Virus record (IMG/VR): IMGVR_UViG_3300044568_001101 | Location: 1-29,419 of that record | From: a virus | Length of the DNA: 29,419 nucleotides | Direction: 5' to 3' (one strand) | Shown: positions 5,628 to 26,631 of the stretch, one piece after another | Layout: every line of letters begins with the position of its first letter | Position numbering within the stretch: position 1 is the stretch's first letter | Translations under genes and position numbers: made by a program | Notes under the pieces: generated by a model | The model's input: the letters and a program-made list of their open reading frames with translations, nothing else | Told to the model about the DNA's origin: nothing | Database searches by the model: none

Positions 5628-5644
5628 TTTATTACTTGTTTTGG

Positions 5645-6067
5645 TTAGTTAAAGGGTAAATCAGACTCAAGGTCAAAGACTTCTTGCGAAATCTTCAAGA
5701 GTGAATCTGCGTTTTGGGAAACTTCCGCATAAACTGGGATGACGTTAGGGTCAATTCCTAGTTCAAATGCGTTATCGCTGAACTCAGTAAGAGAAGCAGC
5801 AACAGAGGTGTGAGCATCAGAAATGCGTGAGTAGTCAATACCAGAGTATTGGCTTTTGAACTCGGCAATCTGTGCTACAATGCCTTCAATGGCACTTTTG
5901 TATTCTTCCGATGCGGAAATAAGGTCAGACAAGTCCGTAGAGACGTCTTGCAGCTCTTGTACGGACGCCAAATGCATCTTGTGGGCAACCCTTTGGTTGG
6001 TCTCCCGAAACGTCTTCCTACGCTTTGCAGACGCAAGAGTGTTAAAGATGATTTGACGCTCGCTCAT
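5645..6067 (-). CDS. Pre-capsid tandem paralogue 3
   Basis: 140 residues, helical, with an N-terminal basic patch (SAKRRKTFRE) and a C-terminal signature FELGIDPNVIPVYAEVSQ. The two genes just upstream have matching features: the M-[NS]-H-Q-Q-R start appears here as MSERQII, and the L-G-[IV]-D segment occurs at the same relative place. I read the three as diverged tandem duplicates. No named family is recognised. The position between scaffold and capsid genes suggests head proteins, for example internal or scaffold-like factors. The start overlaps the previous stop as TAATG. Confidence 0.78.
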   Translation of the reverse strand: MSERQIIFNTLASAKRRKTFRETNQRVAHKMHLASVQELQDVSTDLSDLISASEEYKSAIEGIVAQIAEFKSQYSGIDYSRISDAHTSVAASLTEFSDNAFELGIDPNVIPVYAEVSQNADSLLKISQEVFDLESDLPFN

Positions 6068-15686: not shown

Positions 15687-16109
15687 CTATAGTTGTTGAG
15701 GATTGTACTCAAGCCAGACCTTCCTTAGGTCGTTGATGTATTGCTGCCAATTCTTTGGACTGCAGGTGCAGGGCTGATAAAACGTATGGTTAAATATCCG
15801 TGCGTGGATAGTTGCAATCATCAGTTGCTGCGGAGCGTCAAGTCGGCTGGTATTCAAGGCAAGGAACTGCCCAATCCATTCGTACTCCTCTTTGCTCAAG
15901 CACTCTACCTTTTTGTAGCTAAACATTTCATTTAGTTTCTGCTTCCTTGCTTCGCATCCGCAGTCAATACCCGTTACTTCCGAGAACCAATCAACGGCTG
16001 CTTTGATGCCAGTAGCCTCTGTAATGGCTTCAATAGTATCACCGAGACCCCGTTTCCTTCCACGATTTGTAGGCTTTTTTACAGTTTGTTTTGATTCGTT
16101 GCTTTCCAT
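15687..16109 (-). CDS. Cysteine-containing protein of the terminase-tail junction
   Basis: 140 residues from ATG at 16109; ATG at 16154 is also possible but overlaps the sigma-like gene by 116 bases rather than 71. It has RGRKRGLGDTIEAITEATGI, then GIDCGCEARKQKLNEMF, ECLSKEEYEWIGQFLAL and a C-terminal CTCS-containing helix. The paired cysteines (CGC and CTC) could bind metal. The combination GLGDTI...ATGIK...CGC..RK..LN is one I associate with Bacteroidota phages, without a known function. Confidence 0.72.
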   Translation of the reverse strand: MESNESKQTVKKPTNRGRKRGLGDTIEAITEATGIKAAVDWFSEVTGIDCGCEARKQKLNEMFSYKKVECLSKEEYEWIGQFLALNTSRLDAPQQLMIATIHARIFNHTFYQPCTCSPKNWQQYINDLRKVWLEYNPQQL

Positions 16110-16563
16110 TCTTGAGTGTGTTAAAAATTGAACTGAGGGAAATTTTAGTTTCATCGGAGAGTTCCCTCATTGACATCTCCTGCTTTATGTAAATAGTCAT
16201 CAGCTTTTCATCGTACCAGTTCCACGTCTTAACCTCTGTCCAGATTGAGTGAACCAATACCTGCATTGCTTCTTCTTGTTCCTCTGCACTTCCCTCGTCC
16301 ACCATCTCTGGAATGCGGTCGGTAGTCTGGAATCTTGACCTGCTTTTGGCGTAGTCAGCATACATATTCTTTAAAGCTATGTAAACAAACAAAGTGTTCA
16401 CCTCGTTCTTGTACATAATCTTCTCTGGCTCGCTTACGTACTTGTGCATCCGAAGGTACATCTCCTGAACGATATCCTCCACCATATGACTGGGGCACCC
16501 AAAGGACTGCACCATTCGGCACCAATCCTTGTGACGGGTTGAGAGAAGTTCCAGCACGTTCAT
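16039..16563 (-). CDS. Sigma-70-like transcription factor
   Basis: 174 residues. Residues 11-75 resemble sigma region 2 (MVEDIVQEMYLRMHKY, then a FVYIALKNMYADYAKSR helix). Residues 118-160 resemble the region 4 helix-turn-helix (KLMTIYIKQEMSMRELSDET, then SSIFNTLKNGKQRIK). The order and length fit a small ECF-type sigma, or a non-sigma relative with the same fold. It overlaps the terminase large subunit stop as ATGA. It may direct host RNA polymerase to late phage promoters; that is inference, since no matching late promoter was identified. Confidence 0.72.
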   Translation of the reverse strand: MNVLELLSTRHKDWCRMVQSFGCPSHMVEDIVQEMYLRMHKYVSEPEKIMYKNEVNTLFVYIALKNMYADYAKSRSRFQTTDRIPEMVDEGSAEEQEEAMQVLVHSIWTEVKTWNWYDEKLMTIYIKQEMSMRELSDETKISLSSIFNTLKNGKQRIKTNCKKAYKSWKETGSR

Positions 16564-17720: not shown

Positions 17721-18048
17721 TAATTCTTACATTGAATAAGTTGTCGCTGGTTGTTTGTATTTCCTGACGCTCAACATAGCCACGATGCTTGCCTTTAGTT
17801 TTTAGAAAGAAGATAGTAGCGGTGGAGTTGCCATCCTTTATCTGCTTGTGCAGTTGGCTCTCTGCGAAGTCAAGAGTCATATCGGCAATTGATTCCACTT
17901 GACTGCGGTAGTTCTCATCTTCCTTGTACCACTCGTAGTGAGTCTGTCTGGCAATGCCCACTGTCTTGCAAGCAGCCGTTACAATTCCCAAAGATTTCTC
18001 AAGGGCTTCAGTCATTGCTTTTTTCTGTATGTCAGTTTTTGTCAGCAT
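17707..18048 (-). CDS. terS: Terminase small subunit
   Basis: 113 residues with an N-terminal helix-turn-helix (SLGIVTAACKTVGIARQTHY), a central helix pair (VESIADMTLDFAESQLHKQI) and a LKTKGKHRGYVER motif before the C-terminal tail, as in phage TerS proteins that bind the packaging site. It lies directly before terL and overlaps the end of the dioxygenase gene by 17 bases, tying the modification cassette to packaging genes in one transcript. Confidence 0.88.
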   Translation of the reverse strand: MLTKTDIQKKAMTEALEKSLGIVTAACKTVGIARQTHYEWYKEDENYRSQVESIADMTLDFAESQLHKQIKDGNSTATIFFLKTKGKHRGYVERQEIQTTSDNLFNVRIIETD

Positions 18049-18934
18049 TTCTTATTTTGTTCTTTATAAGTTCGTTGTCGCTTTGAGTCTTTAGTTCCTG
18101 CCTTCTTTTGTCAAGTGAAGCCAGATGATCAGGGTCAAGGCGTTTCTTTTCTCGTTCAGTTTTCACCTTGCGGATGCGTTTGATTTCTTCTCCCAAAGGT
18201 TCGCACTTCCACATTTGCTCAAGGGAGTAGTAGACTAATGAGTATCGGTATGCCGAATCGTTTTTGTATTCAATGCTTGATACTCCGTGAAGAATATCCT
18301 GCCCGTTGAAAATTGTTATGGTATTATCTTCTACTTCCAGAGCAAGGTCAAATTCTGGGATTATTAAATGCCCTCCCTCAATGTCTTTCTTAAACACAAC
18401 CATATTAGACAGAACGCTTTTAAAGTTCCCTGCGTCAAAGTGGTATTTCAGTTGGTTGTTTCTGTTTACAATCCCGCTAGTAAATGGAGAGCCTCCTATC
18501 TTCCAGTCCTGCATTACTCGCTCCTCTACTACTGCATTGTGGTATTCATACTGCTCTGGAAAGTGTTCTCTGTAATAGCCTACAAGTTCTTTGGCGAAGT
18601 CCGTAATTACGTGGTGCTGCTTCGGGTAGTTGTGAGCCATTGACGTTACGGTACAATAGTCGTGGCGCATTGCTACTCGTGGAGAGAACCCGAAGATAGC
18701 GGATGTTGACTCAAGCCCTCTGCTTCTTTTACCCGTTGAGTATTTTTGACTCTTTACTGCCCAGCGTAATGCCGAAGTATCTGTCTGTAGTTTTTTGTAC
18801 AGAACAACGGGCACGTTATCTACGTAGATAATGCAGTCCTCTTTTATAAGGTTTGTTACATCACTGCGGAGTGCGGTTCGTTTCTTGAACTTGCCTTTAT
18901 CTACTGGCAGTCTCTCTAAGTCAAGGCGTATCAT
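18032..18934 (-). CDS. TET/JBP-type 2-oxoglutarate Fe(II) dioxygenase
   Basis: 300 residues. The double-stranded beta-helix core holds the iron ligands His165-x-Asp167 in YHFDAGNF, a GGHLIIPEFD strand (187-196), FNGQDILHGVSS with the distal ligand His216, and Arg230 in YRYSLVYYS for 2-oxoglutarate. The pattern H-x-D-x-G-N ... GG-x-L-x-x-P-E ... LHG is that of the TET/JBP family, which oxidises the methyl group of 5-methylcytosine or thymine in DNA. The charged tail after residue 250 may bind DNA. The start overlaps the glycosyltransferase gene as ATGA. No DNA methyltransferase is present in the window, so thymine or host-made 5-methylcytosine are both possible substrates. The family call is good; the base specificity is unknown. 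Confidence 0.8.
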   Translation of the reverse strand: MIRLDLERLPVDKGKFKKRTALRSDVTNLIKEDCIIYVDNVPVVLYKKLQTDTSALRWAVKSQKYSTGKRSRGLESTSAIFGFSPRVAMRHDYCTVTSMAHNYPKQHHVITDFAKELVGYYREHFPEQYEYHNAVVEERVMQDWKIGGSPFTSGIVNRNNQLKYHFDAGNFKSVLSNMVVFKKDIEGGHLIIPEFDLALEVEDNTITIFNGQDILHGVSSIEYKNDSAYRYSLVYYSLEQMWKCEPLGEEIKRIRKVKTEREKKRLDPDHLASLDKRRQELKTQSDNELIKNKIRNADKN

Positions 18935-19650
18935 TTTAGTTTCTTTGATTTGTATTGCTCACCTATAAGTTTTGGCTCATAGTACCATCGCTTATCTTCC
19001 TTAACAATTATGCCAACGGTTGGGTCTGTTGATTGGAACACGGCAATTTCTTTTTGGGCTTGTTCCTTTCGGTCAAAAGCCTGATGGCCTCCAGCCCCAC
19101 TTCCTACGGGCTTGCATTTGATTGGGTGCCGAGCGCAGAACAAGGTAAACTCATTATTGTGAACCATCTGGAAAAACTGGTAAAAGTCCTCAAATGTGTT
19201 TATCTCCTCACGTGGGCGGAACGAACTAGTGCGTATCAAATAGCAGGTTTGCACTCGTTTGTTTACGTGCGTAAATAGTCGCTTGCTTTTAGCGTAGAAC
19301 TCAAAGTCATACGGGAACACAACGGCTCCAAGATTAGGGTAAGATTTGAAGTAAGACAGAATCTCCGTTAGGTCGCTGGCTATCTCACCTACTGCAGATA
19401 CGTCATCGTCAATCTTGAATATTACGTCATAGCCGTTCTCTTCTGCGTAACGCTTGGCCTCCGTCAGGGCGTACCATATCCCAGCGTTGCTGCGCTCTAG
19501 TTTTAGTTTGTTGGGGTAGTCGTACTTGTCGTAGTCATCTTCCTCTAAAACAAGCAGGGTATCAATACCCAAACTATCAACAAAAGCACGACAGACTTTC
19601 TGAAATAACTCAGGCCTCTGTTTACTGGGTATTACTGCTAAGGGTTTCAA
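18931..19650 (-). CDS. TET-associated-type glycosyltransferase
   Basis: 239 residues, GT-A-like. The first strand (LAVIPSKQRPELFQ) is at the very start, which requires the TTG start at 19650: a stop lies 12 bases upstream and there is no nearby ATG. Other features are a LLVLEEDDYDKY strand, the metal and sugar-nucleotide motif KIDDDV (79-84), LGAVVFPYDFEF, and GSGAGGHQAFDR (183-194). The layout matches the TET-associated glycosyltransferase (TAGT) type described beside phage TET/JBP enzymes. The inferred role is to place a sugar on the hydroxymethyl base made by the neighbouring dioxygenase. It overlaps the ParB-like gene by 29 bases. Confidence 0.75.
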   Translation of the reverse strand: MKPLAVIPSKQRPELFQKVCRAFVDSLGIDTLLVLEEDDYDKYDYPNKLKLERSNAGIWYALTEAKRYAEENGYDVIFKIDDDVSAVGEIASDLTEILSYFKSYPNLGAVVFPYDFEFYAKSKRLFTHVNKRVQTCYLIRTSSFRPREEINTFEDFYQFFQMVHNNEFTLFCARHPIKCKPVGSGAGGHQAFDRKEQAQKEIAVFQSTDPTVGIIVKEDKRWYYEPKLIGEQYKSKKLK

Positions 19651-20212
19651 GTAGGTAAATAATTACGTCAGTGTTGCTTTCCAGTTCTTTCTCTTTGGCA
19701 ATCTCCTCCAGCTTTCCAATAACGTACTCGTATTGTTGGTTGTCAAAGTACAAAGTTATCTGTTTTACTTTGGAATTGATGTACTTGTCAAGGGCTTCAT
19801 CCAACTCATCCTTATCAAATTCTGGCTCCTTATCATCATCAAAGTATGATGCAGGGATATCCAAGCCCCAGTCAACCAGTTCCTCTATGCTCCACTCGTT
19901 CGCAAGAACGTCCCAATCCCACTCACCGAATGATGAATTGTCTTTGATAACAAACTCCTTCTTTTGTTCTTCCGTTAAGTCCGTAGCAAGAATAACGGGA
20001 ACTTCAGTAAGCCCTGCCTCACGACAAGCACGAAGGCGCATATTGCCACCAAGCACCATCATATCATTATCTACAACAATTGGTCGCAGCTTGAGCATCT
20101 CTGGGAACTCCTTGATGCTGCTAACAAGTTTTTTGAACTTATCGTTCTTAATTACTCTAGGGTTGTTCGGTGCGAGTTTCACCGTGTTAATAGGAACAAT
20201 CTCAGTTTTCAT
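19622..20212 (-). CDS. ParB/sulfiredoxin-fold protein of the modification cassette
   Basis: 196 residues. Residues 1-70 are a ParB N-terminal domain: PINTVKLAPNNPRVI, FPEMLKLRPIVVD, then the nucleotide-binding motif GGNMRLRACREAGL (55-68). Then comes DLTEEQKKEFVIKDNSSFGEWDWDVLA, usual in phage ParB-like proteins, an acidic linker and a C-terminal alpha/beta part. There is no methyltransferase fused to it, unlike many phage homologues. ParB-like domains of this type are recurrent partners in phage DNA modification operons; their activity there (nuclease, kinase or NTPase) is not settled. Confidence 0.8.
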   Translation of the reverse strand: MKTEIVPINTVKLAPNNPRVIKNDKFKKLVSSIKEFPEMLKLRPIVVDNDMMVLGGNMRLRACREAGLTEVPVILATDLTEEQKKEFVIKDNSSFGEWDWDVLANEWSIEELVDWGLDIPASYFDDDKEPEFDKDELDEALDKYINSKVKQITLYFDNQQYEYVIGKLEEIAKEKELESNTDVIIYLLETLSSNTQ

Positions 20213-20912
20213 TTTTCTTAAATAGTTTGTTGGGTTTTAAATTAGGGCTTACATCAAGTGCCCAGCTGGCAGTTTGATAGGACTCGTAGTAGAACTTTTC
20301 TCTGGGAACTGTCTCCCAGTTGTCGTTGTGCCACTTTGTCCACGCCACGTTCATCGGTTTGTACTTTGGTAGCACTTTCTTAACCACACGAGAAAGGAAT
20401 GCGGGTCCAGTTGTCTGCAAAACAAACCGACCTTTCCACTCGTTGTAGATTTTGTTTGCGCTCTTCTCGGCATAGTTCTCAATTAGTTCCTCAAAAATTA
20501 TCTCCCAAAGCTTCAGGCCTGCCTCTGTTCCCATAAAGTCGTTCTGAACAAACTCGTGGTGGTTTGGGATTAAATGATGCAAGGTGTGAAGAACAAAGCG
20601 TTGCTCTCGCAAAGGCTCAAAAGACTGGATGCAGTGAGAGTCCAAGTCGCAGTAGAAACCTCCGTGAACATAGAGAACTAGGAACTTGGTAAAGTCAACC
20701 CTCTGAATGTTGTACCTAAGGCTCTGGTAGAAGTCCAGAAGGTCAGGGCGATGTTCTTTTACCAAAGCGAGGGCATCTTCCGCCCCCCACAATTTATACT
20801 CCCAGTCGGGGTGTATTTCCTTCATTGTTCTGATGCTCTCCACAAAGATGGGTATGTTTTCCAATGGCCCGTTCCACGGGAAGTATATCTGGTGAATCTT
20901 CTTTGGTATCAT
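20202..20912 (-). CDS. DXD glycosyltransferase (capsular/OCH1-like)
   Basis: 236 residues. It begins with IPKKIHQIYFPWNG, the usual start of glycosyltransferases with a DXD sugar-binding region, then PDWEYKLWG, and YVHGGFYCDLDSH with the metal-binding Asp89-x-Asp91. A C-terminal part contains TTGPAFLSRVVKK. The enzyme should transfer a sugar from a nucleotide donor. Next to a TET/JBP enzyme and a TAGT-like enzyme it could extend or add sugars on DNA; modification of a virion or host surface protein is the alternative. ATGA overlap with the HNH gene. Confidence 0.82.
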   Translation of the reverse strand: MIPKKIHQIYFPWNGPLENIPIFVESIRTMKEIHPDWEYKLWGAEDALALVKEHRPDLLDFYQSLRYNIQRVDFTKFLVLYVHGGFYCDLDSHCIQSFEPLREQRFVLHTLHHLIPNHHEFVQNDFMGTEAGLKLWEIIFEELIENYAEKSANKIYNEWKGRFVLQTTGPAFLSRVVKKVLPKYKPMNVAWTKWHNDNWETVPREKFYYESYQTASWALDVSPNLKPNKLFKKNEN

Positions 20913-21495: not shown

Positions 21496-21628
21496 TTTTG
21501 TAGTTTTTTATTACCTCTTGCTCAATTAGTTCAAGCATATAGTCAAAACTTATACTATTGTCTTCACCGCCATAGCGTTGTCGGTTTACTACATCTCTAA
21601 AGAATGCTGCGCTGATGTACTTGCTCAT
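21479..21628 (-). CDS. Small protein of unknown function (49 aa)
   Basis: Starts MSKYISAAFFRDVVNRQRYG and has DYMLELIEQEVIKNYKNESKG at the end, largely helical. It lies in a row of three small genes between the nuclease gene and the terminator, 12 bases after its neighbour and overlapping the next by 17. Accepted on spacing and protein-like composition; no family recognised. Confidence 0.65.
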   Translation of the reverse strand: MSKYISAAFFRDVVNRQRYGGEDNSISFDYMLELIEQEVIKNYKNESKG

Positions 21629-21640
21629 TTCTCGTTGGTG

Positions 21641-21811
21641 TTAAAGGTCGCTATCAGCATCTATTCGCTCTTTTTTAGAGAGACTATCATAGATGTAATA
21701 CTCAATTTCTCCGTAGGTGCCGTATAGGGTGCGACCTTTGTAGTCCCACCTATACCAGCTATCCTCTATCCACTTCACAGTTCTTCCGTGAATTTTAATA
21801 ATACGGCTCAT
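21641..21811 (-). CDS. Small protein of unknown function (56 aa)
   Basis: Starts MSRIIKIHGRTVKWIEDSWY, then RWDYKGRTLYGTYGEIEYYI and an acidic end. The alternating aromatic and charged residues look like a small beta barrel or sheet. ATG forms ATGA with the stop of the PD-(D/E)XK nuclease gene. Function unknown. Confidence 0.7.
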   Translation of the reverse strand: MSRIIKIHGRTVKWIEDSWYRWDYKGRTLYGTYGEIEYYIYDSLSKKERIDADSDL

Positions 21812-22596
21812 TCCAGAATCCCTCTTAAAGTGTAATTGTCAAGACTTTCTCCGTTCTTGAAAAAGGTCTCATAGCGACCAATCGCATCCTTTACCTTTTT
21901 GTACCCTTTGTTTAGGAACGTGGGAGAAACGTCAAAGATTCCTACATCAAGGCTTTCCTTGTCAATAACAATAAACTTGAAGTTAGACTGGGGAATGCCA
22001 AATATGTGCGTGTAGAGCCAAGCCTGAACGTCATAATTATAGCGTTCTGCGCTATGAGAAAATCCCCGAACCTCACGAGTTGTCTTCAGGTCAGCCATAA
22101 AGAGATTAGGAAGGTCAAGAATGTCGGCCTTCGCACGGAAAGGATAACCCTCCACCATTGCAATTTCTGGCACCTCAAACTCGCAGTCTGCAATCATAGT
22201 CAGAACGTGCTCGTTGCGGAGCGTAGCATCAACAATACGCATATTGTCATCGTACTCCCTACGGGTAATAACTGTCTTGCTGGATGCATCCCTAGTTTCC
22301 TTGAATGCTTTGGCTACTCGGCTTTGAACTTCAACCACCTCGTATCGGTCGCTGAACGTGTGTGGCTCAAGAACCATAGTGTGGATAAACTGACCGACCT
22401 GCAAAGCAGTTGAGTCGGACTCTACAAAGTTTCTGGTCAAGCCAGAGTAAACCTTTGGACTCTGGAGCAGGTATCCTACCGAAGAGCTGGAAAGGGCATT
22501 TTTACCCAAGTAGCCGTAGTAGAACTCTTGGTCGTGCATATGGTTAAGAAGGACTTCTTTATCGTGGACCGTTTGGTCAAGTAGGGTTATTTTCAT
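21808..22596 (-). CDS. PD-(D/E)XK exonuclease, RecE/DUF3799-like
   Basis: 262 residues. Features of the RecE-like / YqaJ-type nucleases: LQVGQFIHTMVLEP (65-78) with His72 and Glu77, KADILD with Asp158, ADLKTTREV with Asp169-x-Lys171, and the QxxxY helix YNYDVQAWLYT (187-197). Such enzymes resect double-stranded DNA ends for annealing-type recombination. No annealing protein of the RecT/Erf kind was recognised; the SSB-like protein at 25967-26374 may serve. ATGA overlaps on both sides. Confidence 0.85.
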   Translation of the reverse strand: MKITLLDQTVHDKEVLLNHMHDQEFYYGYLGKNALSSSSVGYLLQSPKVYSGLTRNFVESDSTALQVGQFIHTMVLEPHTFSDRYEVVEVQSRVAKAFKETRDASSKTVITRREYDDNMRIVDATLRNEHVLTMIADCEFEVPEIAMVEGYPFRAKADILDLPNLFMADLKTTREVRGFSHSAERYNYDVQAWLYTHIFGIPQSNFKFIVIDKESLDVGIFDVSPTFLNKGYKKVKDAIGRYETFFKNGESLDNYTLRGILE

Positions 22597-23288: not shown

Positions 23289-23388
23289 CGTTTTCGTATT
23301 CATAAGTGCAGGTTTCGCACTTGTTGTTAGTCAAAGGACCTTCGCAGTCCTCGCAGTAATCGTTCTCGTCAGGATATTCCCAGTTCAT
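23278..23388 (-). CDS. Zinc-ribbon-like microprotein (36 aa)
   Basis: Reads MNWEYPDENDYCEDCEGPLT, followed by NNKCETCTYEYENDEL. Two CxxC pairs (12/15 and 24/27) 12 residues apart make a compact zinc ribbon; the rest is strongly acidic. The start overlaps the stop of the membrane protein gene (TAATG) and the end overlaps the next start by 11 bases. It may act as an adaptor or a small regulator. Confidence 0.72.
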   Translation of the reverse strand: MNWEYPDENDYCEDCEGPLTNNKCETCTYEYENDEL

Positions 23389-23513
23389 TAGAAAATGGCG
23401 TTAACGATTGACTCAAGCGAGAGCAATAAAATCACTCCAGCACAAATAATAAAGTAGCCCAGAGCCAAGATTCCCACCTCAGCAAGGGTCAATTCAGACA
23501 GTTTTTTATTCAT
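23388..23513 (-). CDS. Small membrane protein (41 aa), first gene of its transcript
   Basis: Begins MNKKLSELTLAEVGILALGY and has one hydrophobic helix (GILALGYFIICAGVILLLSL, about 14-33). It is the first gene after the promoter/operator at 23524-23564. Function unknown; such single-helix proteins in early regions can act on host envelope or superinfection, but that is only a possibility. Confidence 0.7.
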   Translation of the reverse strand: MNKKLSELTLAEVGILALGYFIICAGVILLLSLESIVNAIF

Positions 23514-23523
23514 TTTATGTAAT

Positions 23524-23564
23524 TTGGTTAAGCAATGTTAAACAAAATATTTGACTTTACCAAA
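23524..23564 (-). promoter_or_regulatory. Promoter P2 with operator-like palindrome
   Basis: On the minus strand TTTG (23561-23564) is followed after 20 bases by TAACATTG (23533-23540), close to the Bacteroidota consensus TTTG / TAnnTTTG with one mismatch. The bases just downstream form TTGCTTAACCAA (23524-23535), a near-perfect palindrome across the start of transcription. The ATG of the first gene follows ten bases later. The same block lies under promoter P1 at 26592-26631. It sits in a 112-base intergenic gap. Confidence 0.7.
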
Positions 23565-23625
23565 AGTTACAACACTTTATCCTCGTTATTTTTGATAAAA
23601 GTATTAATTGCTGGTTTCAGCAAGA

Positions 23626-24144
23626 CTACTCAAAGTCATAGTCAAGGTATTCAGGGGCAAGGCCTTCCAAGTCACCTACGGTAAGATAGGTAAATACATC
23701 CTTACGACCTTCCCTTCCGCACCACTGATAGAGGCCATCTTGTGGCTGAATAAAGTTAGCCCTAATTACTTTAGTTGAGTGGTATAGTGGGCATAGTAGT
23801 AGAACTAATTCCCTTAGAAGTAACTTATCTATAATCATAAAGTGGTCGGAGAACTGAAACGCTATAACCTGCGCTTCGCTTTGTATTGAGCACCAACCAG
23901 CGTAGCCATATCCGTTTATAGCTTCCACTAACACATAGCCATTCTTATGGCTTGGCTTGTAGCCTTTGACATCTACCTTCTTCCCTTCCCAGAAGCAGTC
24001 AATGTGCCTCTTATCTTCTTCTAACGTAGATTCTCTGGCGTCTGTTAAGAATATAAACAATTGCTCCGACTCTTCTTTAAGTCGGAGACAATGTTCTTTA
24101 CGGGTTTCGTTACTGAACCAATCGGGGTTATATGTTGATTTCAT
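23626..24144 (-). CDS. PD-(D/E)XK fold nuclease-like protein
   Basis: 172 residues from ATG at 24144; the longer frame begins with a TTG inside the previous gene. It has HIDCFWEGKKVDVKGYK with Asp49 and Asp58-x-Lys60, then VLVEAINGYGYAGWC, where the hydrophobic strand and Glu74 complete a PD-(D/E)XK-like core, and AQVIAFQFSDHFMIIDK. Small proteins of this kind in Bacteroidota phages are unassigned nucleases. It ends the transcript before promoter P2. Function beyond nuclease fold is unknown. Confidence 0.6.
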   Translation of the reverse strand: MKSTYNPDWFSNETRKEHCLRLKEESEQLFIFLTDARESTLEEDKRHIDCFWEGKKVDVKGYKPSHKNGYVLVEAINGYGYAGWCSIQSEAQVIAFQFSDHFMIIDKLLLRELVLLLCPLYHSTKVIRANFIQPQDGLYQWCGREGRKDVFTYLTVGDLEGLAPEYLDYDFE

Positions 24145-24496
24145 TAATAGCTTGCTCCAACGATTCAATCTGCTTCTTCATCTCCGTAAGTATTTCGGAG
24201 AGGCTTCTGGTATCAATGGCCTTTCGGCTATGCCTTCTGTATAGTTCCTGCGTTCGCAGGTATACGTTCTTGTAAAGTTCCTGACGCATATATTCATCGT
24301 GCATCTGGCTATGCTGATATATCGTGCTATGGTTTCTATTCAAAGCTCCGCCTATCTGCATCAAGGTAAAATGAGGCCGTAGGGCATTGATATAAGCCTT
24401 TCTAGGCATTACAAGTGATGCGCTTTGGCAACGCCCCTGCAACATAATATTAAACTCTGTATTCAGGTCATTTCGGATTTGTTCAAGTACAATCAT
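24128..24496 (-). CDS. DnaA domain IV-like DNA-binding protein
   Basis: 122 residues. Residues about 30-75 (RKAYINALRPHFTLMQIGGA, then LNRNHSTIYQHSQMHDEYM) have the layout of the DnaA C-terminal helix-turn-helix: a turn with IGG, then NRNHSTI as the DnaA-box-binding helix. A helical C-terminus follows (SEILTEMKKQIESLEQAI). There is no AAA+ domain. It may recognise a phage origin or regulate early genes. ATGA overlap with the preceding gene. Confidence 0.7.
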   Translation of the reverse strand: MIVLEQIRNDLNTEFNIMLQGRCQSASLVMPRKAYINALRPHFTLMQIGGALNRNHSTIYQHSQMHDEYMRQELYKNVYLRTQELYRRHSRKAIDTRSLSEILTEMKKQIESLEQAINEINI

Positions 24497-24744
24497 ATCA
24501 TTTCTTTTTTATTAACGGCCTCGTCCAGACGATAGCCAGCGATGTTAAATTCTTTTCCCGTTCTGGTATTACGGAGTGTGTACCTGCGGTAGTGTGCTGA
24601 CGCTGGGTCTTTGCTTTTCTCGCAGTATTCGTTCATAGGCAGTTTTGTGCAAACGCTACAAAAACTCCACTGATAGTCAATAACTTCGTAAGTGTCTTGG
24701 GTTTTTTTACTGACGAGAAGGTCTCCTATAGTAATTGCTCCCAT
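24493..24744 (-). CDS. Small cysteine-containing protein (83 aa)
   Basis: Begins MGAITIGDLLVSKKTQDTYE; the centre has WSFCSVCTKLPMNEYC, with CxxC and a third cysteine that could bind zinc, and the C-terminal part YTLRNTRTGKEFNIAGYRLD is beta-rich. It overlaps the previous gene by 19 bases. No family recognised. Confidence 0.68.
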   Translation of the reverse strand: MGAITIGDLLVSKKTQDTYEVIDYQWSFCSVCTKLPMNEYCEKSKDPASAHYRRYTLRNTRTGKEFNIAGYRLDEAVNKKEMI

Positions 24745-25028
24745 CCCTCAATAATTTTATTCATTTCTGCGTTAGACTTCTTGACCTCTGATAGTTCATA
24801 CTTGAGCCGAGCATTTTCCAGAGCCACATCTTCCAAGCGTTTGTTAGAGTCTCGTTCGTAGTCCCGATAGTAGTTCAGGCAAGTTTGAATGCGCTCAAGG
24901 TCTATAATCCACGTGAACAAGTCCTCACGTTTGCTGCGGAGATAGAACTCGCCAATTTTATTTTGGATAGCGTGGAGGCGCAGTTGACGCTCCATAATTA
25001 TTAACTCGTTAAAATGGTTCTGGGTCAT
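24726..25028 (-). CDS. Small coiled-coil protein (up to 100 aa)
   Basis: ATG at 25028 overlaps the end of the ATPase gene; ATG at 24995 (MERQLRLHAIQNKIGEFYLR) would give 89 residues without overlap. The centre and C-terminus are charged helices (RLEDVALENARLKYELSEVK) typical of a coiled coil. It could be a helicase accessory or loader by position only. Confidence 0.65.
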   Translation of the reverse strand: MTQNHFNELIIMERQLRLHAIQNKIGEFYLRSKREDLFTWIIDLERIQTCLNYYRDYERDSNKRLEDVALENARLKYELSEVKKSNAEMNKIIEGWEQLL

Positions 25029-25923
25029 TGGTTGTTGCGTGCATTAAGTTTTTATATCCGATAGAAAAGCCCACATTATTCGTCAGGGAACGAATACGGA
25101 TGGGCGAGTGAAGAGGGGTTGGGCGTCCGCCCGTTTCAATGTCCTTGACCTTCCTGACGTGTATGTCAGTATAAATCCAGTCCGTCTCGTGTTGCGTATA
25201 ACGATGTATAACAAAGAACTCGTCTGCACGGTTGACAAACTTGCCTCCGCCCTCTACATCCGCAGCCATAGGTGGCGTTGGATGCCCCTCGTAGTCGTGG
25301 CCTTTTGCGTGCGTTCTACGCAAGGCTTCGCTGGTCGGGTGAGTATTTACTATAATCATAGCATTGTTCTGCTTGCAGAATACCCGAAGAGCAGTTGTGG
25401 CTTCGTAGTGGTACTGATGTTCCGATACGTTACCCAATGCTTTGCGGTCAACTGCCAGAGAATTATACGGGTCAATAAGAAACCCGTCAAACGCCTGCTC
25501 ATCGTAAACATTTTGAGCATCCTGCAGCAGGTCAAAGACGTTGTACATCTTGTCGGTGCGGACAAAGCGAAAATGCCCCAGAATAAAAGCGTGAGCCTCG
25601 TAGAATTTCTGGTCATTTATACTGCGGATTGGCTGGAAGCAATAGAACTCTATGAGCTTTCGCTGCAAAGAGCCGACTTCGTTCTCGCTGGAAAAGATTA
25701 ACCAACGAGTGCCATTGCGCATTGTGTGAAGAAGGCAGGAGTACATTATGATGTGGGTCTTGCCGACATTGGCGTGACCCGTAACCACGATGAAGTTGCC
25801 TTGTTTGAATCTGAGGAAGTCATCCAACTCGGGATGACCGAAGCGACTGGCCTCCTTGACTTTGCCACTACGGGCTTTTTCCAAGTAGGAGAGTGCCTCC
25901 TCGCTAGTGTAGAGAAGTTCCAT
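25009..25923 (-). CDS. RecA/DnaB-fold ATPase, probable replicative helicase
   Basis: 304 residues. Walker A GHANVGKT (49-56), catalytic Glu80 in FSSENEVG, Walker B FDGFLID (145-151), then a sensor-like segment AMIIVNTHPTSEA and ADVEGGGKFVNRADEFFVIHR near the C-terminus, as in phage DnaB-like or T7 gp4-like helicase domains. No primase domain is present. It is expected to unwind the replication fork or to load onto recombination substrates. It follows the terminator at 25935-25959, so it depends on read-through or an unseen promoter. Confidence 0.85.
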   Translation of the reverse strand: MELLYTSEEALSYLEKARSGKVKEASRFGHPELDDFLRFKQGNFIVVTGHANVGKTHIIMYSCLLHTMRNGTRWLIFSSENEVGSLQRKLIEFYCFQPIRSINDQKFYEAHAFILGHFRFVRTDKMYNVFDLLQDAQNVYDEQAFDGFLIDPYNSLAVDRKALGNVSEHQYHYEATTALRVFCKQNNAMIIVNTHPTSEALRRTHAKGHDYEGHPTPPMAADVEGGGKFVNRADEFFVIHRYTQHETDWIYTDIHVRKVKDIETGGRPTPLHSPIRIRSLTNNVGFSIGYKNLMHATTNDPEPF

Positions 25924-25934
25924 TATTCAATGTT

Positions 25935-25959
25935 AAAAAAAAACCCCGAGTTAACGAGG
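25935..25959 (-). terminator. Rho-independent terminator after the SSB-like gene
   Basis: On the minus strand CCTCG pairs with CGGGG (five pairs with one U-G) around TTAACT, followed by nine T; flanking A and T runs lengthen the stem. It begins eight bases past the stop of the SSB-like gene. It may reduce transcription of the helicase block compared with SSB. Confidence 0.75.
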
Positions 25960-25966
25960 CTTTTTC

Positions 25967-26374
25967 CTAAAATGGATCTTGTTCAAAGTGCTTGTCGTAC
26001 GAAACGGCTTGAGGCTTTTGCATTACCCAAGAATTAAAAGACTCGGCATATTGCAGAATCGTATTAAGGTCAGCCCCGTTAGAGGAACCATACTCAACGG
26101 CAGCTTTTAAGGCCACCTGACGAACGATAAGTTCATCTTTGGAACCACCCCCAGCAGGAGCAGCGTACGATTGACTACCGCCCCCGTATTGAGGCTTGTC
26201 AAGTTTCATAGAACCTTTATCGTTTACCTCGGCAGAGACTTCATCGCCCACGTTGAAACGTAGCTGCGGAGTCTTTGAGTAAACAATTCCAGATACTCCG
26301 TTATCCAGAGTTACAGAGAACTTGTGGAACGCATTCCACATTCCGTTCGGGGTTGCTGATGCAATCTTAGCCAT
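25967..26374 (-). CDS. Single-stranded DNA-binding-like protein
   Basis: 135 residues. The first 65 residues are a small beta domain with NGMWNAFHKFSVTLDNGVSG, FNVGDEVSAEVNDKG, consistent with an OB fold; then a Gly/Pro/Ser/Ala-rich linker, a helix (ELIVRQVALKAAVEYG), and the tip HFEQDPF, which matches the acidic Phe-terminated tip used by SSB proteins to recruit partners. It is the second gene of the transcript from P1. OB-fold identity is inferred from size, tip and context. Confidence 0.7.
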   Translation of the reverse strand: MAKIASATPNGMWNAFHKFSVTLDNGVSGIVYSKTPQLRFNVGDEVSAEVNDKGSMKLDKPQYGGGSQSYAAPAGGGSKDELIVRQVALKAAVEYGSSNGADLNTILQYAESFNSWVMQKPQAVSYDKHFEQDPF

Positions 26375-26577
26375 TAGAGTTTTGAGTTTATCCAGTCCAT
26401 AGTCCTTATTTCAGCCTCCAGTACCGCAAGGTTGGTAGAGCTTTTTTGCGTATGCAAATCCCACTCCAACTGCTCAATGCGATTGTTAGCTGCCTTTAAG
26501 GCTTTTTCCAGAGCGTTGATACGCTCAACGTGAATGTGCACCAGTTGATGCATCGTGTCTTGAGAGAAGTTTATCAT
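26374..26577 (-). CDS. Small coiled-coil protein (67 aa), first gene after P1
   Basis: Reads MINFSQDTMHQLVHIHVERI, then a heptad-like helix LEKALKAANNRIEQLEWDLH. The start follows the palindrome of promoter P1 and the stop overlaps the SSB-like start (TAATG). Function unknown; by location it is an early gene. Confidence 0.7.
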   Translation of the reverse strand: MINFSQDTMHQLVHIHVERINALEKALKAANNRIEQLEWDLHTQKSSTNLAVLEAEIRTMDWINSKL

Positions 26578-26591
26578 TTGTTTATCATAAT

Positions 26592-26631
26592 TTGGTTAAG
26601 CAAAAATAAAAAAATTATCCCAATTACCAAA
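26592..26631 (-). promoter_or_regulatory. Promoter P1 with operator-like palindrome
   Basis: On the minus strand TTTG (26628-26631), a spacer of exactly 19 bases and TATTTTTG (26601-26608) reproduce the Bacteroidota sigma-A consensus perfectly. TTGCTTAACCAA (26592-26603) overlaps the -7 box end and the presumed start site, as at promoter P2. It is the best promoter in the window. Confidence 0.85.

Follow-up and report, generated by a model that had tools for sequence, protein, structure and literature searches.

Two putative early promoters of a Bacteroidota-type virus share a block spanning the -7 box and the predicted start of the transcript

The window analyzed here is the whole stretch of DNA, namely the complete 29,419-base IMG/VR virus record IMGVR_UViG_3300044568_001101. 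The virus is uncultivated, and we infer that it belongs to Bacteroidota-type bacteria. Nearly all genes of the window lie on the minus strand, among them those for a portal, a terminase, a tape measure protein, a RusA-like resolvase, a DnaB-type ATPase and an exonuclease VIII-type nuclease; all features described below are on that strand. Operon A, a replication operon (26577-24128), is preceded by promoter A. It opens with a gene for a 67-aa coiled-coil protein (26374-26577), followed by a conserved 135-aa protein (25967-26374), a DnaB/primase-helicase-type ATPase (25009-25923) and a helix-turn-helix (HTH) protein resembling DnaA domain IV with a C-terminal coiled coil (24128-24496). Promoter B lies upstream of operon B, whose first gene encodes a 41-aa membrane protein (23388-23513) and whose further genes lead to a PDDEXK exonuclease (21808-22596). 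Elsewhere in the window, a queuine tRNA-ribosyltransferase-like and a glucosyltransferase-like gene lie beside a ParB-like nuclease gene (18032-18934, 18931-19650 and 20202-20912), a group that suggests DNA modification or host takeover.

Both promoters were compared with the sigma-A promoter consensus of Bacteroidota, in which the -7 element reads TAnnTTTG (PMC6847099, PMC9723704). At site A, the -33 element TTTG (26628-26631) is separated by 19 bases from the -7 element TATTTTTG (26601-26608), which matches the consensus at 6/6 positions. Site B combines TTTG (23561-23564), a 20-base spacer and the -7 element TAACATTG (23533-23540), with one mismatch (5/6). Just upstream of a gene, TTTG plus a perfect -7 box occurs on the minus strand of the window at site A only. 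The 15-mer TTGCTTAACCAAATT has just two copies in the record, both free of mismatches, at 26589-26603 and 23521-23535. The common string extends to 16 nt, TTGCTTAACCAAATTA (26588-26603 at promoter A and 23520-23535 at promoter B), again in exactly two copies and in the same register of both promoters. The first-pass annotation had described two promoters with 19- and 20-base spacers followed by the same block, and this description was borne out; a search for the motif over all 29.4 kb placed the block at the two promoter sites only. A further string, TTTTGGTAA, is common to A and B around the -33 box.

Repeated 15-mers are unremarkable on their own, as simulated windows hold about two of them. 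For a run common to both promoter regions, none of 3000 shuffles reached 16 nt (maximum 14, mean 6.7). The exact 16-mer has 44 matches in IMG/VR; in the contexts as printed, none of these lies between a -7 box and a downstream start codon, and we read them as chance. A nucleotide search of INPHARED gave no match.

Promoters of Flavobacterium johnsoniae have 4 or 5 nt between the -7 element and the first transcribed base (PMC6847099). By this rule the predicted +1 is the A at 26596 for promoter A and the A at 23528 for promoter B, the mRNA from promoter A is predicted to begin with ACCAAATTA (26588-26596), and both mRNAs would begin 5'-ACCAAA. Read in this way, the block is made up of the last bases of the -7 box (TTG), a discriminator of four non-conserved bases (CTTA) and the nine bases predicted to be transcribed first. 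Its 12-mer is palindromic in five of six pairs, which had led to the earlier idea of an operator. Self-complementarity is, however, inevitable wherever ACCAAA stands a few bases downstream of a TTTG box, and this explains the impression of a palindrome. In 21 A/B sites, taken from the window and the clades nearest to it, ACCAA sets in 4-6 nt downstream of the final -7 base (8 sites at 4, 10 at 5 and 3 at 6), the ATG follows at 15-19 nt, and positions -4 and -3 are mixed. As these sites were gathered for carrying ACCAA, the invariance of the motif is partly due to this choice of sites, whereas the fixed offset is informative. With ACCAA at or next to the predicted +1 and -4/-3 mixed, the conserved unit would be the promoter together with the first transcribed bases.

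Searches with the helicase and its neighbors yielded many syntenic relatives in IMG/VR, and both promoter positions are syntenic in dozens of them; a helicase search of GTDB genomes confirmed no relative. The conserved order is RusA, promoter A, g26374, g25967, helicase, g24726, g24493 and the DnaA-like gene, and in relatives, too, a small membrane-protein gene follows promoter B. The expectation that the block would recur upstream of the same genes held for one part of it only. The exact block is absent from the closest relatives (L083, L050 and L090), but all three carry ACCAAATTA at both sites: L083 has CTTAGCAGAAACCAAATTACG at A and ATTGGCTAACCAAATTACG at B, and L050 has CTTAGCACAAACCAAATTACG at A and CTTGGCTTACCAAATTACG at B. 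The groups of L047, L071 and L084 keep AAACCAAA or ACCAAC. Among the closest relatives, the left half is free to vary (it reads TTGC, TTGG, or AGCAGAA/AGCACAA), and the distance between TTTG and CCAA is not constant across relatives. Conservation is confined to the right half, which opens at the predicted start of transcription. In clades 5 and 6, the stretch common to A and B likewise sets in about 4 nt past the -7 box, as judged by eye.

The leader differs by clade (ACCAAATTA in the closest relatives, GTTCAATYATAAAA in L076, GTACTAA..ACACACACTAA in the L064/L066 group), but A and B of one phage still match. In a test of nine phages of different clades with 20,000 permutations, a phage's own A and B were more alike than A and B taken across phages, for the whole region (p<1e-4) as well as for the spacer alone (p=1e-4) and the leader alone (p<1e-4). 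That the two sites remain matched despite the differences between clades points to a common reader or to gene conversion. Over 32 clusters, TTTGGT at -33 and ACCAA in the leader showed no significant coupling (Fisher p=0.24).

The best-supported reading, to which we give just short of an even chance, is that A and B share a promoter/5'-leader expression signal. A and B would be homologous promoters of the Bacteroidota sigma-A type, used by the host sigma factor for two operons that are presumably early because they carry replication and recombination genes. Both transcripts would start with the same predicted leader, 5'-ACCAAAUUA, and selection would act on the -7 box and the leader alone. The palindrome would then be a by-product, since TTTG followed by ACCAAA is self-complementary. 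The leader would most likely serve as a signal in cis, so that the mRNAs of both operons start alike and offer the same context for translation. The start site, the host group, the early timing and the function of the leader are all inferred in this model. The distance from ACCAA to the ATG counts against it, as it differs by clade (15-19 nt vs roughly 7-12 nt), and we know of no contact of the ribosome or of RNA polymerase with ACCAA. A signal confined to the leader also leaves unexplained why A and B are alike in the promoter spacer, too (p=1e-4), and why inverted repeats are enriched in promoter regions across the family.

Bacteroidota hosts do not use Shine-Dalgarno sequences, which their ribosomes ignore. 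A leader that is common to a phage's transcripts and kept at the predicted mRNA start in relatives offers a concrete, mutable sequence for asking how phages of these bacteria achieve fast translation of their early messages. In a distant clade (L154, L158, L164, L165, L167, L168, L170, L173, L175, L181, L182 and L187), AAAACCAATC lies a short way upstream of the ATG in most genes of the replication block, and these include operon-internal genes that have no promoter of their own. AAACC was found in 53 of 199 upstream windows of this clade vs 4.7 expected, a count from related loci that are not independent. AAAACCAATC before the ATG is a possible sequence-specific translation signal of a non-Shine-Dalgarno kind. 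A signal at the level of RNA or translation would be favored by the offset of the leader from the -7 box and by the position of AAAACCAATC before these promoter-less internal genes; the genes inside the operons of the window lack the motif, so that a general translation signal is not supported there. More broadly, Bacteroidota phages may carry their own sequence-specific leader for translation or mRNA start, with an ACCAA core read by a host or phage factor. Early mRNAs in the clade of the window would begin with such a leader, and in the other clade it would lie before most start codons of the replication block. We consider this wider proposal unlikely. In the window, CTTTAACTAACCAAAACAAG before a capsid-like gene (phrog_11320; 5628-5656) resembles the leader motif; among 33 relatives inspected, a leader of this kind before the capsid-like gene is kept only in one that is 98% identical.

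AACCAAA was also considered as a leader common in the host and was rejected. A promoter followed by AACCAAA gave 50 matches in 149 Flavobacteriaceae genomes (about 0.3 per genome) vs 11 for the composition control ACAAACA, and about 14 of the 50 are a host palindrome of 14 bp, TTTGGTAAACCAAA, which overlaps the -7 box. Where its context was inspected (L242-L254, Flavobacteriaceae genomes), this palindrome is followed by a second copy of (A/C)TGGTnnACCA, and the genes downstream look secreted, sugar-kinase, polysaccharide/sugar-acid or carbohydrate-related. We take it to be probably a GntR/FadR-type operator, bound by a host repressor.

Separate from the shared block, we observed a 25-nt element, AACCTTTAACACCAAMGAGARATGA, at 21626-21647 of the window and also in L255-L334, L047, L071, L182 and others. 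Its bounds are sharp. On very diverse phage contigs it immediately precedes small non-homologous ORFs, taking in their start codon, and upstream ORFs enter it in all three reading frames. With up to 3 mismatches allowed, the 154 loci that we fetched hold 257 copies, a number biased by the fact that most of these loci were fetched with the element itself; a contig holds up to 9 copies, at a median spacing of 224 nt. The element is absent from the 149 Flavobacteriaceae genomes, a 45-nt probe containing it had no match in INPHARED, and we found no published mention of it. It looks like a gene-cassette boundary or a universal leader, and its position before arrays of small phage genes may make it more interesting than the shared block.

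The main rival to the shared promoter/5'-leader signal is a common DNA-binding regulator. The block would then be part of a binding site for a phage regulator over the -7 box and the start of both operons, timing or repressing them, which we regard as possible, if on the unlikely side. The best candidate would be the DnaA-domain-IV-like protein encoded in operon A (24128-24496), acting as an autoregulator on an asymmetric site resembling a DnaA box. The identity of this protein, proposed in the first-pass annotation, is supported by both fold and family searches. PF08299 (Bac_DnaA_C) matches 36/50 of its relatives at E<=0.01 (best 1.8e-9), although the match of the window protein alone (0.0015) stays below Pfam's cut-off. 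Its AlphaFold model has a pLDDT of 90, and the top Foldseek matches, 3pvp and 1j1v (probability 1.00, E 0.006-0.016), are DNA-binding domains of DnaA in complex with DNA boxes; a sequence search of the PDB with the DnaA-like profile gave one unrelated weak match only, where the fold search succeeded. The protein combines a GRDH(S/A)S signature with the coiled coil, and its gene is present in 102 ORFs of the fetched loci. The co-variation of A and B within a phage, in spacer as well as leader, is what a common reader predicts, and the sites behave as if read by one factor (own-pair permutation p<1e-4), a pattern that gene conversion may also explain. Dyads are, moreover, enriched in A/B-type promoters compared with swapped halves.

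The palindromic operator of the earlier proposal, by contrast, found no support in the comparison with relatives. The palindrome is conserved neither in sequence nor in spacing, the left half and the distance from TTTG to CCAA both varying, so that the two symmetric half-sites expected for a dimeric repressor are not conserved among them. The position of the dyad differs by clade, and the sites of the window have no stable dyad. The leader motif also stands before internal genes without promoters in one clade. A comparison of TTAACCAAA with the DnaA box TTATCCACA (TTWTNCACA) gives by inspection 7/9 matching positions, a weak hint that by our own estimate arises by chance about once in 20 cases. 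The host palindrome indicates that an operator can occupy the position over the -7 box, but the left half of the phage block does not fit it, and the window has TGCTTAACCA in place of the GntR/FadR-type core TGGTnnACCA. The other regulator suggested earlier, a sigma-like protein, found no counterpart: none of the 20 window proteins scanned with Pfam matched a sigma-factor family, the nearest being a sub-threshold UPF0122 HTH match at 16039-16563. If it is the DnaA-like protein that reads the leader, the DNA-binding domain of DnaA would have gained a new use, as a switch of phage transcription.

An RNA hairpin is the next alternative. Inverted repeats over promoter and leader would fold only in read-through transcripts coming from upstream genes and hide the start codon there, whereas transcripts from the embedded promoter would lack the 5' arm and be translated, as for T4 gene e. 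Hairpins are strong in several relatives (L083 B, -11.5 kcal/mol, z -4.1; L084 A, -13.8 kcal/mol, z -4.1; L077 A), and a compensatory pair change distinguishes L083 B from L050 B (TTGTGC/GCACAA to TTGTAC/GTACAA). Native halves pair better than swapped ones (clade-site mean z -1.65, p 1e-4), with p 0.0005 for pairing energy and 0.002 for the ungapped dyad in a separate permutation. Sites A and B of the window, however, fold no better than shuffles (z +0.46 and -0.19) and no better than swaps (z +0.64 and +0.87). With z near or above 0, the hairpin was rejected for the window itself, and it stays a rival at the level of the family. In some relatives the dyad lies elsewhere, e.g., inside the spacer in L158. 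We consider this explanation improbable for the shared block. Promoters inside strong hairpins that end near a start codon were seen in L083 (6000-6022), L084 (2070-2100), L071 (3010-3040) and at site A of L077.

A and B might also be alike only because a promoter segment was recently duplicated or copied by gene conversion, the block having no function beyond the promoter. This would fit with repeated 15-mers not being rare in such a window and with spacer stretches common to A and B of L083, but we hold it to be more improbable still, as the similarity is confined to functional positions and, in several clades that differ in sequence, recurs in the same register at syntenic sites.

Several known systems resemble parts of the arrangement described here. 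The leader of T4 gene e is a promoter embedded in an inhibitory hairpin (PMC3014915), and in several relatives, too, an inverted repeat surrounds a promoter and would make the start codon inaccessible in longer transcripts. The window differs in having neither such a hairpin nor a Shine-Dalgarno sequence. The operon A protein shares its fold and HTH signature with DnaA domain IV; unlike DnaA, it lacks the AAA+ domain and has an added C-terminal coiled coil, and its putative sites contain no consensus DnaA box. The host palindrome TTTGGTAAACCAAA and the phage block are of the same size and lie in the same register relative to the -7 box, but the host palindrome has an intact left half, TTTGGT, and a second copy, whereas the phage left half reads TTTGCT or ATTGCT and no second copy follows. 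The two promoters also resemble the sigma-A promoters of Bacteroidota such as Flavobacterium johnsoniae and F. psychrophilum (-33 TTTG / -7 TAnnTTTG). A and B have both elements at a spacing of 19-20 nt, a predicted start 4-5 nt downstream of the -7 element and short leaders. They differ from these promoters in that the predicted first transcribed bases are common to two phage operons and kept in relatives.
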